Below are positions 1 to 24,559 of a stretch of DNA of 64,000 bases, piece by piece. Every line of letters begins with the position of its first letter. Position 1 is the first letter of the stretch. Made by a program: the position numbers and the translations under genes. This DNA is from Isoetes taiwanensis. Taxonomy: Eukaryota > Streptophyta > Lycopodiopsida > Isoetales > Isoetaceae. The DNA is taken from NCBI GenBank assembly GCA_021234155.1, contig JAJEKV010000087.1:1662409-1726408 (forward strand), given 5' to 3'. Below the pieces are notes generated by a model, which worked only from the letters and a program-made list of their open reading frames with translations, was not told the origin of the DNA and made no database searches.

Positions 1-2340
1 AATCTCCCTGTGTTACACACTTTACATACCCCGAGTTCATAAGGGATATTACTCCATCTACCCACTTCCACACCTAGTGCAGGTGAACTGAGCCTCAATC
101 GACTAATGGCATGCCACGTACTTCAATGACAACCCTTCACCTAGATATCTTGGTGCCTTAAGCAAAGGGATTGATGGACTTTGCTTATAGTATGCTTTCT
201 TCACCTCGGGGACACACCAAGATCGTACAACCACATGATGCGTACCTGTGCCTAATGTCACCGCCGTCGGCAGGCGGTCATTGCTATCCAATCCCCATTT
301 CCTCATCCGGATCTTTATGTCCGCGATACCACCATTTGTCTCTAGTTGCCTCCATAGCAACCCTAGGCAAGCACTCTTGTGCATATCCGGATGCACCTTA
401 CATATATATTCAAGGGTCTTGCACAAGGCTTACGCCTCGGCTGACATCATACCACATTCCACCAACATCATGTCATAAGGAGTTTGTGCCTTAACCCCTA
501 ATTTGACCGAAGAACTTTTTTGAACCTTTTCGACCTTTTTCCAAGTATCTTACAATTCCTGGTGCCCATACCTCACACCATACAACACTACCGATTGCAC
601 AAGTACTTTGAACAACATTAAATTTCTTTCGAAATTCCAAATGTCAAGATTCGCACTCTGCGGTGCATACTATATAGAGCCTTGACCCACCATTCACCCG
701 TTAGTTTCTAACTTCTGATTCCAGTTGGGACTTTTATCAAGCTTTGGACTCCCAAGTACTTATATGAGTCTACTATGTCCAGCGTTCCCCTTTGTATAAA
801 AACTCAAGGTGTTCTACCTTAAGTGCCGAAAACAATCAGCTTAGTCTTAGCTAGATTCACCTTCATACCTTTGTGATCACAAAAAGGGACGGAGAAACCA
901 AATGTTTTGCATTCCCCACCGATCTGGATAATATAACAATGTCATCAGCGCATAAAGTAGCATAAGCAACACATACCCATTCATGACCATGCCATCCCTC
1001 CCGAAGTGAGCCATCCATTCTTCCAACTGGTCTATGAACGGATCAAACAAAGTGTGGGACATAGGGCATCCTGTTTTGACCCCCATGTTACTAATTACCT
1101 CCTCCGAGGCGGGTCTCGAGAGTAGGGAAATGATAATTGAACCAAAACTTTTTCATAAAGCAATTTAACAAACATTTCTCATTTCTAAGGGTACCCCAAA
1201 GCATCTCCAACCTCTCCCAAAGATTGCCCCATTGTATTGTATCAAATGCTTTTGTAAAATCTCTCTAAAGGCGCATACAATGGTTTTACGTGTTATATTT
1301 ACCAAATCGATCAATATAGCGTACCATGACTAAATGGTGCATTTGTCGATTTCTTGGACCTAAAACCCGCTTGCCCTTTTGCCACGACATTGTTCTTTTC
1401 GGCCCATCCACTAATTTCCATTTAATAACCATAGTGGCAAAAGTTTTTCAAAGAGATTACTAACCATTATCATTCTATAATTGTTTGGGTGGTTTTCATC
1501 TCCAGCTTTATGGAGGGGATAACCCTATTCATCCGCCACATGTGGGGGAACCCTTCTCTCAAACCTGCATTCATCAATTTCCATAGTGCTTCTGTGTTGT
1601 CATCCCCGCCCATTTAAACATTTCAGCCACTAACCCCATATTATCTCTTTGGCTTTCCCATTCGACAAAGCTTGTAGCCCCTCTTGTATATCATCAAATG
1701 TGAACTCCCACTCGTCCCATTTCAGTCTTTGACTTTGGTACATTATCTTCTATGCAGGACATGATATAGATTGCCAATATATTCCAATAGATCTTCCTTT
1801 CCTAACACAACAAATTGTCTTAGCTTTGGTCCGATCCTATTCAGAACTTCTTGGGCTCTTTAAGCAATTCATCAATCATTTGCAAAGTGCTTTTTGTATA
1901 AAACTTCTTCTTTTTTATTTCACCAACCTCATGTATTCTCGCCTTGATCGCTCTCCTTTTATCCCCTTTTGCTACTTTAAACTCATGTCTCTTCACTTGC
2001 ATTGGATGATCAAACCAGGTGTTGTATGGTAGCCCCTTCAATTTTCTTTGGGATAAATAGCACTTCTTAGCATTTTCAAGTACCAATGTACTAAGCTTCA
2101 TCTTGATATCCCTCACCTTTCCCGCCATATCACCTATTTTGCGCCGCCTCACACATGGAAGCAAATTTGTCACCTTATGGTAACTCATAACCAGTCTTGA
2201 CTGTCATTAACATCTGCTTTGAAGGGCTCAAATCGGGCCAACGTTTAATGTAACAAAAAATGGCACATGGTGGGATTTGGTCTCTCATCCCCAACCTCAA
2301 AACTCACCATTTGTTCCATAAACTAGCGGTCTTGCTATCA
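1..2340 (-). pseudogene. LINE A ORF2 remnant (endonuclease end, RT, C-terminal region)
   Basis: ORF2 of an L1-type LINE would encode an APE-type endonuclease and a reverse transcriptase for target-primed reverse transcription. Here only broken frames remain. Residues at 1841-2188 match the linker of the other copies (motif GLPYNTWFD, compare GLPCNGWFD in copy C). The frame at 877-1086 matches the RT core: GVKTGCPMSHTLF aligns with GVKQGCPMSPTLF of copy C. The catalytic YADD box is destroyed (reads YALM). The frame at 103-426 aligns with the post-RT region of copy B. The zinc-finger end would fall outside the window. It cannot encode a working enzyme. Confidence 0.85.
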
Positions 2341-2370
2341 CCGGATCTACCACAATTGTTTCAGATGAGA
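1..2370 (-). mobile_element. LINE copy A (L1-like), 5'-truncated, runs off left edge
   Basis: This is a decayed non-LTR retrotransposon on the minus strand. Its ORF2 order, read from high to low coordinate, is the end of the endonuclease (~2190-2340), the endonuclease-RT linker (1841-2188), the RT core (~880-1700) and the C-terminal region (1-800). Comparison with copies B and C gives the order. The 3' end and tail lie left of the window. The 5' side stops inside the endonuclease at about 2340-2370, directly against a TG/GA microsatellite, so no ORF1 is present. Many frame breaks make this the oldest-looking copy together with B. Confidence 0.85.
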
Positions 2371-2470
2371 TGTGTGTGTGTGTGAGAGAGAGAGAGAGAG
2401 AGAGAGAGAGAGAGAGAGAGAGAGAGAGAGAGAGAGAGAGAGAGAGAGAGAGAGAGAGAGAGAGAGAGAG
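2371..2470. repeat. (TG)7(AG)43 microsatellite between LINE A and LINE B
   Basis: About 14 bp of TG is followed by about 86 bp of uninterrupted AG. The tract separates the truncated 5' end of copy A from the 3' tail of copy B. On the LINE sense strand it reads (CT)n immediately after the tail. The perfect repeat suggests recent expansion or insertion. Confidence 0.97.
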
Positions 2471-2501
2471 ATGAAATGAAATTGTATTATTACCGCACGT
2501 G

Positions 2502-2516
2502 AGACCGCCCGGGCCT
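2502..2516 (-). promoter_or_regulatory. LINE B 3' stem-loop
   Basis: On the RNA (minus) strand AGGCC pairs with GGUCU around a 5-nt loop. Position 3 is a G-U wobble. It lies about 20 nt inside the pentamer tail, as in the other copies. Confidence 0.7.
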
Positions 2517-2540
2517 ATGAGAGGCGTCAAACCAAAGACA

Positions 2541-23509: not shown

Positions 23510-23547
23510 GAGAGAGAGAGGGGAGGGGGAGGGGGAGGGGGAGGGGG
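23510..23547. repeat. (GA)n(GGGGGA)n microsatellite
   Basis: About 11 bp of GA are followed by four GGGGGA-type units. It lies between the truncated end of LINE F and the tail of LINE G. Confidence 0.95.
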
Positions 23548-23587
23548 AAATAAAATAAAATGAAATGAAATGGTATTACGTCTATGG

Positions 23588-23602
23588 AGACCTCACAGGT
23601 CT
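23588..23602 (-). promoter_or_regulatory. LINE G 3' stem-loop
   Basis: RNA strand: AGACC, loop UGUGA, GGUCU. The stem can extend to six pairs (AGACCU/AGGUCU). Confidence 0.72.
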
Positions 23603-23710
23603 AGTACACGATAGTATAATAGTTTACAATAAGTCATCTGAGAAGTCTACATCAGGGGCTTCCTCAGTGCTCTCATCCCAATCATCACTACTCTCATCAT
23701 CTAACAATAT

Positions 23711-24535
23711 CTATAACTGTTTTACATATCCATCTCTATGTTGTAGGGATCCCACCACATGAGAGTTTAAGTCAAATAATTGAGTCAAGTCATCTACAGA
23801 TATACCATATCTATCTCTGACCCCTATATAAGCAGGGCACTTTATCAACACATGATGCTTATCTTCCACGTCCATGCTACCACAAGCCTTACATGTTCGT
23901 CTATCTCGTGGAATCTTCCCCCAACGTCCTGTTTCAATCCCAAGTCTATGAGAGCTCAATCTCATCCGACTAATCACATGTCTCTTTCCTATCGAGATGT
24001 TTTCCTGAAGGTGTTTAGCCTGTCTCAAACTTGAGTTCATCTGATGCTCATACATGCTCATCTTCGGTTGCGGGTTCATCCATAGTTTGGCCATCACTTT
24101 ATGTTTTACCCAGTGTCTGATGTCTCCATCATATATCAGGGCTTCATCCAAGGATATATTCCATTTACCCAACCATTGTTTGATATCAAAATACCATCCT
24201 TGTTCAATACTAGCTTGCATAGCTCGGTATACAACCCATGTGTCATCATGTTGTTTCAGCTTTCTCACATACCTAATGCATCTTACTATAGCCTCCCCTT
24301 TCCATTGGCATAAGCCCACATTCCGCTAGTAGCATAGGGAATGGGGTTTGCATTTTAACTCCTAATTCTTGCCACAGGAATTTTTGAAGTATTTGCTCAA
24401 TGTCTTCCCAAAGACCCTTGGGCAGGCTTGGTCCCCATGCTTCACATCCATAAAGGACAACAGTTTGCACTAGAACAAAGAAGAGCTTAATCTTTAAATC
24501 CCATGACCATAAATGTATTTTTCTGATGAGGAGAT
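23711..24535 (-). pseudogene. LINE G ORF2 C-terminal part
   Basis: Two frames: 24273-24535 has FFVLVQTVVLYGCEAWGPSL, LGVKMQTPFPMLLAECGLMP, the post-RT block common to all copies. 23711-24319 continues (202 codons) with MSMYEHQMNSSLRQAKHL and the zinc-finger end CKACGSMDVEDKHHVLIKC, whose Cys and His residues are intact. The start and the RT catalytic part are missing. Confidence 0.87.
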
Positions 24536-24559
24536 CCAAACCCTCATTTGGAATGAACT

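Follow-up and report, generated by a model that had tools for sequence, protein, structure and literature searches.

Kibi and Koshi, long interspersed nuclear elements (LINEs) of the Tx1 clade in fish that Kojima and Fujiwara are said to have described in 2004, reportedly insert into TC or TTC microsatellites. Here, we describe LINEs in comparable surroundings in Isoetes taiwanensis (Lycopodiopsida, Isoetales). The sequence analyzed is a stretch of 64,000 nucleotides (assembly GCA_021234155.1, contig JAJEKV010000087.1, positions 1,662,409 to 1,726,408 of the forward strand), which is referred to as the window and in which positions are counted from the first letter. In this window, LINE copies are stacked head to tail and are joined at GA/CT tracts that read CT on the LINE sense strand. 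As in Kibi and Koshi, a LINE with an endonuclease of the AP-endonuclease (APE) type appears to be associated with TC-type microsatellites; the hosts of those elements are animals, whereas here several families stack in arrays. On balance, we favour the view that these LINEs insert, in a fixed orientation, into GA/CT tracts as their target, and we regard them as a probable but unproven plant variant of the microsatellite-targeting LINE.

Zepp, a LINE of green algae, ends in a poly(A) tail. In Chlorella and Coccomyxa it forms nested clusters, apparently one per chromosome (PMC3446292). The Isoetes elements resemble Zepp in being LINEs of the green lineage that lie in nested clusters, and differ from it in their tail, which consists of a pentamer repeat and a pyrimidine run. 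Microsatellite targets would also be shared with Togen, which is (TG)n-specific and related to NeSL, and with HERO, which is microsatellite-specific and carries a restriction-like endonuclease (PMC4640811), whereas the present element has an APE fold. A 3' hairpin followed by short tandem repeats is described for the L2-type elements ZfL2-1, ZfL2-2 and UnaL2 (PMC4176376, PMC3747384) and is also found here; in contrast to these elements, ORF1 in Isoetes is probably of L1 type, and the available text of these sources mentions no CT target for L2-type elements. Within plants, the L1 lineage of maize and sorghum has a conserved 3' hairpin with compensatory changes, and almost all L1-clade LINEs of flowering plants end in poly(A) (PMC3747384). 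The Isoetes LINEs are comparable to the former in coming from a plant, in their probable membership of the L1 group and in their compensated hairpin; no CT target is mentioned in the portion of that source at hand. Tx1 itself is grouped with L1 (PMC3747384), to which ORF1 also points in the present case, and LINEs with APE-like endonucleases are stated, in the accessible part of a further source, to have site-specific members only in the Tx1 and R1 clades (PMC13295347).

Microsatellite-targeting LINEs and the nested LINE clusters of green algae are already known; the new aspect is a plant LINE in CT tracts, of which no description was found among the matches listed from the open-licence literature. 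If insertion is indeed directed to such tracts, this land-plant lineage would show that microsatellite targeting either originated in the green lineage or was retained there, and its endonuclease would have a target that is abundant and for the most part non-coding. This would also help to explain the origin of both CT microsatellites and LINE clusters in large plant genomes. It would further become possible to test within one lineage whether microsatellites are produced by LINE tails or serve to attract LINEs.

GA/CT tracts and LINE copies

All seven GA/CT tracts of at least five units in the window lie at LINE junctions, which occupy two regions apart from each other, at 1-24 kb and at 63-64 kb; thirty first-order Markov windows had a mean of 0.27 such tracts and a maximum of 1. 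None of the seven has CT on the plus strand, and all have it on the LINE sense strand. Six are located at most 31 bp from a LINE tail, and the seventh lies 77 bp away, across a (CCCT)n run. When GA/CT, CA/GT and AT types were scanned, the remaining tracts of at least five units in the 64 kb were two of the CA/GT type, both inside these same junctions. LINE-rich arrays can form by chance, and the copies could in principle have nested without any target preference, their CT tracts having expanded afterwards; GA/CT tracts of at least five units are, however, found nowhere else in the window and the orientation is uniform, so that we consider this explanation very improbable.

Positions 1-24521 are occupied by seven LINE copies and one stub, all on the minus strand and head to tail, in the order G-F-E-E0-D-C-B-A along the sense strand, with an inverted piece preceding C. 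This bears out the tandem minus-strand array proposed in a preliminary description made from the letters of the window. A second LINE pair, I and H, absent from that account, is present at the opposite end of the window (63225-64000). Junctions are designated X|Y, where the sense-strand tail of copy X is followed by the 5' edge of copy Y. At all eight LINE 3' ends found (G, F, E, E0, D, C, B and I), a hairpin motif is followed by a tail repeat, a pyrimidine run and the next copy; the tail repeats comprise two or more units, mostly ATTTC or ACTTC, and are of the TTTC type in I. The sense strand carries (CT)n of at least five units at seven of the eight junctions, the exception being C|B with TCTCT. 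A CT, CT-CA or CT-GT run is present at the 5' edge of eight copies (A, B, C with its inverted piece, D, E0, E, F and H), truncated or not, and is limited to TCTCT before B. The association holds both for truncated copies (F, A, H, E0) and for full-length ones (B, D), so that CT is not simply part of the 5' untranslated region (UTR). A search with the hairpin-plus-tail motif, which was written from these 3' ends, returned those eight places and no other on either strand; two-unit pentamer repeats occur at seven other places, without the hairpin motif and in no case beside a CT tract of at least five units.

The form (CT)n, element, pentamer tail, (CT)n that had been put forward for every copy is thus seen at most junctions, the departures being the short run at C|B, the compound nature of some tracts and the 5' edge of G, where CT is lacking. 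The truncated copies A and F and the stub E0 do end at tracts, as described, with CT or CT-CA runs at their 5' edges. A CT-type run also stands at the 5' edges of B, D and E, which had been taken as full-length, although E is not clearly so.

Read in the sense direction, copy G (23551-24521) corresponds to the 3' part of a LINE and is followed by (CCCCCT)n and then (CT)6 (junction G|F, 23509-23550). Copy F (21614-23508) is truncated within the reverse transcriptase (RT) region, its tblastn homology to LINEs starting 12 nt from the tract, and ends in (ACTTC)7, after which comes (CT)46 (F|E, 21522-21613). Copy E (17508-21521) is nearly full-length and holds a 528-residue open frame for endonuclease (EN) and RT (19051-20634); its first ~620 nt were assigned by eye, which places its start at about codon 3 of ORF1, and tblastn supports it only from 20898. 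A pure (CT)54 tract (E|E0, 17400-17507) leads to the stub E0 (17342-17399), composed solely of the LINE 3' hairpin motif and (ACTTC)2, and then to (CT)20 with CCCTTCTCTCTC on its 3' side (E0|D, 17287-17341). Copy D (12655-17286) carries a 5' UTR in common with B, ORF1, EN and RT, and its (ATTTC)8 tail is followed by sense TCTCTCTCTCT, that is, (TC)5T (D|C, 12644-12654). Next to it, on the plus strand, is an inverted RT fragment of 415 bp (12229-12643) that matches positions 9020-9432 of C (395 matches in 425 columns). The nesting had been described as uninterrupted; this fragment is an interruption, and apart from it no other element was identified between the array copies by an inspection made without a repeat library.

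Copy C (7464-12228) is a full-length LINE with an open ORF1 frame (10862-12055), EN (9839-10858), RT (8083-9048) and a C-terminus, in which ORF2 is broken; its (ACTTC)2 tail is followed by TCTCT alone (C|B, 7459-7463). Copy B (2472-7458) consists of a 5' UTR, ORF1 traces, EN, RT, C-terminus, 3' hairpin and (ATTTC)2, and the adjoining junction reads (CT)43-44 and then (CA)7 (B|A, 2371-2471). Copy A (1-2370), delimited by a tblastn chain from EN through RT to the C-terminus and by reading of the DNA, is 5'-truncated and extends past the window end, with EN-region homology starting at 2284, 87 nt from the tract. In the second pair, copy I (63824-64000) is a LINE 3' end with hairpin and TTTC tail that likewise extends past the window end; it is followed by (CCCT)n(CT)16(GT)9 (I|H, 63697-63823) and by copy H (63225-63696), a LINE fragment whose EN homology starts 6 nt from the (GT)9 tract. 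These copies and junctions are all on the minus strand. The 63225 end of copy H falls in the endonuclease region.

The surroundings of the 5' edge of copy G were also inspected. A continuation of G upstream into a hidden CT flank was rejected, since positions 24521-25000 score like shuffles against the RT regions of C, F, E, B and D (five of five). One downstream-anchored alignment carries G weakly on to ~24570 in C, and there is a CT tract at neither 24521 nor 24570. Beside this edge, on the plus strand, positions 24530-25240 resemble, by eye, a histone H3-like gene or pseudogene.

The 3' hairpin and the encoded proteins

The inner stem of the hairpin, whose five pairs we assigned ourselves, is made up of standard pairs in all eight copies (40 of 40). 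One pair is A-U, G-C or G-U, which includes a two-sided change from A-U to G-C, and two others are C-G or U-G. Read by eye, an outer stem (CGUCU/AGACG) can be made out clearly in C, E, F and I, with both sides changed in I; a single pair is mismatched in G, and D, E0 and B have a broken outer stem. A conserved 3' hairpin followed by a short tandem tail, as predicted here from the sequence, is the form of stringent-type LINEs, for which the ORF2 protein is described as binding the 3' hairpin (PMC4176376).

ORF1 was characterized in copy C, where it is an open frame of 398 residues. The AlphaFold model, which was calculated from a 4-sequence alignment (mean pLDDT 67.9, pTM 0.33), displays a long helix (residues 153-242), then elements in RRM-like order and a C-terminal alpha-beta-beta arrangement. 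The 11 best Foldseek matches in the PDB are all human L1 ORF1p, with low target-normalised TM values of 0.36-0.63. The link to L1 at the sequence level is weaker: a 4-row profile including P0027 gave an E-value of 8e-7 and the profile without P0027 one of 0.017, and the single C ORF1 sequence used as query yielded no such L1 ORF1 match. The model thus suggests that ORF1 is probably of L1 type, with the coiled coil, RRM and C-terminal domain that characterize the L1 group.

Pfam matches to Exo_endo_phos_2, Exo_endo_phos and RVT_1 identify an APE-type endonuclease N-terminal to the RT, as in the L1 group. The ORF2 endonuclease model (pLDDT 73.1, pTM 0.72) adopts the AP-endonuclease fold; among the 50 structural matches listed, human APE1 is best by E-value, and the highest target-normalised TM, 0.75, is that of an L1 endonuclease variant. 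C, E and G share a C-terminal motif of the CCHC type, in which F has an R in place of the histidine; the Pfam family zf-RVT stayed below cut-off in the element.

When the RT of copy C was compared to solved RTs with phmmer, R2 reached 43.5 bits and human L1 31.0 bits. An RT profile matched 816 proteins at E <= 1e-20 (of 8000 scored). Nine of the 120 RT matches listed carry an organism name, namely Taxus, Cryptomeria (2), Calypogeia, Riccia, Adiantum (2), the green alga Trebouxia and one bacterial label, and copy C is 35-43% identical to the eight RT relatives from the green lineage. No relative was found when the C RT or an EN alignment was compared to viral contigs, nor when an RT alignment was compared to genome contigs, and Rfam (at gathering thresholds) and ARAGORN returned nothing in the window. 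The named RT relatives point to a plant host, perhaps one outside the flowering plants, and the copies are probably LINEs of the green plant lineage that belong to the L1 group.

Origin of the tracts

Pairwise DNA comparison was performed for the eight copies A to H, which form 28 pairs. C and F are the sole long close pair (75.5% identity over 1716 bp); the longest of the other alignments are those of B and D (67.9% over 2054 bp) and of A and B (66.4% over 944 bp), and in the remaining pairs no alignment is longer than 856 bp, seven of these pairs being without a match. Over at least 100 bp, identity never exceeds about 76% for any pair, and the few higher values, up to 78.9%, come from stretches of 38-91 bp. 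At the protein level, tblastn identities range from about 22% to 75%. The divergence of the copies excludes tandem duplication and indicates that the association with tracts is an old property; to judge by the same comparison, the array mixes several LINE lineages. We note that the 5' UTRs of B and D (7286-7462 and 17113-17290) share 162 matches in 181 columns, whereas identity averages ~68% over those parts of the two copies that can be aligned; this could reflect either exchange between LINE families or a constrained promoter.

A single insertion event that produces a concatemer by template jumping, with synthesis passing from the 5' end of an RNA to the tail of another, would agree with the uniform orientation of the junctions, at all of which a tail meets a 5' edge. 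The presence of different families and of several copies truncated inside their ORFs argues against it, the intervening CT would be needed in every RNA, and we hold it to be the least probable of the explanations considered here.

The CT tract could also derive from the element itself, whose RNA tail would give rise to it at every insertion through templated CT or UUUC/CUUC slippage; the first copy could then have landed anywhere, and later copies in the tails of earlier ones. This would be consistent with the CT or pyrimidine run that follows the tail at eight of eight 3' ends and with the absence of CT from the 5' edge of G, and RTE-type LINEs have been proposed as microsatellite seeds (PMC2887409). 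The switch from tail to CT occurs, however, at differing phases of the pentamer (after AT in B and E; after ATTTC or ACTTC in D, F and C), and several tracts are compound, with (CCCCCT)n(CT)n before F, (CT)n(CA)n before A and (CCCT)n(CT)n(GT)n before H. Such phases and such CA, GT, CCCT and CCCCCT units are unexpected from a fixed templated tail and speak for a pre-existing microsatellite; moreover, later copies would still have to choose a CT tract. We thus judge an origin of the tracts from the tail to be unlikely, albeit far from negligible.

Several points nevertheless weigh against directed insertion. Inside the array, a target origin and a tail origin of the CT are not separable, because a given tract adjoins the 3' end of one copy and, at the same time, the 5' edge of its neighbour. 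As for the endonuclease preference for GA/CT in one orientation that had been suggested earlier, the strict association and the single strand across divergent lineages agree with it, but the tracts may instead come from the elements' own tails. The run at C|B is merely TCTCT. There is no CT tract at the 5' edge of G (~24521-24570), which is the only 5' edge in the window that faces out of an array; this favours derivation from the tail, or a subsequent loss of the tract. Under either origin of the CT, eight other copies are found next to such runs. The inner stem of the hairpin appears in the lowest-energy single fold of six of the eight copies, B and D preferring another fold, and only three of the eight (E, C and I) fold clearly better than shuffles (z below -3). 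Finally, part of the sequence resembles an uncorrected long-read consensus, which makes the lengths of the tracts and the breaks in the ORFs uncertain.

In the directed mechanism that we favour, the ORF2 protein would bind the 3' hairpin of its own RNA and nick the GA-rich strand of a GA/CT tract, and reverse transcription would start where the U/C-rich tail repeat meets, and presumably anneals to, the GA primer. The new copy would be left with sense-strand CT on both sides and with a usable CT tract, alongside which other families could later insert in the same orientation, and the array would grow by such successive insertions. Target-primed reverse transcription on a GA-strand primer would account both for CT on the two sides and for the variable phase between tail and CT, since RT would start at varying points on the primer. 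The inverted piece that separates D from C has its start at the CT tract and proceeds from the interior of the RT gene in the direction of the 5' end of that gene; it is a candidate product of twin priming from the CT-bearing strand; the downstream copy C is, however, full-length, so that a second RNA or strand displacement would have to be assumed.

More tentatively, and with less than even confidence, we suggest that these copies could represent a LINE lineage that is ancient and plant-wide and whose many diverged families have the GA/CT microsatellite as their common target. Each insertion would use this target and re-create it at its 3' edge, giving rise to self-extending LINE-microsatellite arrays. 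If such arrays do extend themselves, LINE and microsatellite would spread as one unit.

Sequence quality and other repeats

Differences between repeated sequences were counted in ten pairs. In three of them, indel events outnumber mismatches (16 to 8 for C and the inverted piece; 38 to 35 for a pair of putative long terminal repeats (LTRs); 6 to 5 for 25421/31720), and in the other seven mismatches prevail (for example, 23 versus 2 for 37310/60817 and 361 versus 50 for C/F). The indel-rich pairs suggest an incompletely corrected long-read assembly and could thus favour an artefact in which separate LINE loci were joined at CT tracts. However, three of the eight junctions (C|B, D|C and G|F) have CT runs of only 5-12 nt, a length at which an assembler should not be misled, and a CT flank on each copy would still be required; we find such an artefact improbable. 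Because of the partly uncorrected pattern, frame breaks and tract lengths are unreliable as ages, and the use of ORF breaks as an age clock was dropped, as the differences between some repeats are dominated by indels.

Indel-heavy differences are patchy across the window, as seen for 12229-12643 versus 9020-9432 and for 38725-39305 versus 50418-50995. The latter pair corresponds to direct repeats of ~600 bp that lie 11.7 kb apart (38725-50995), are 82% identical and probably represent retrotransposon LTRs. A dispersed direct repeat of 547 bp, with 95% identity between its copies, is located at 37310-37853 and 60817-61363.

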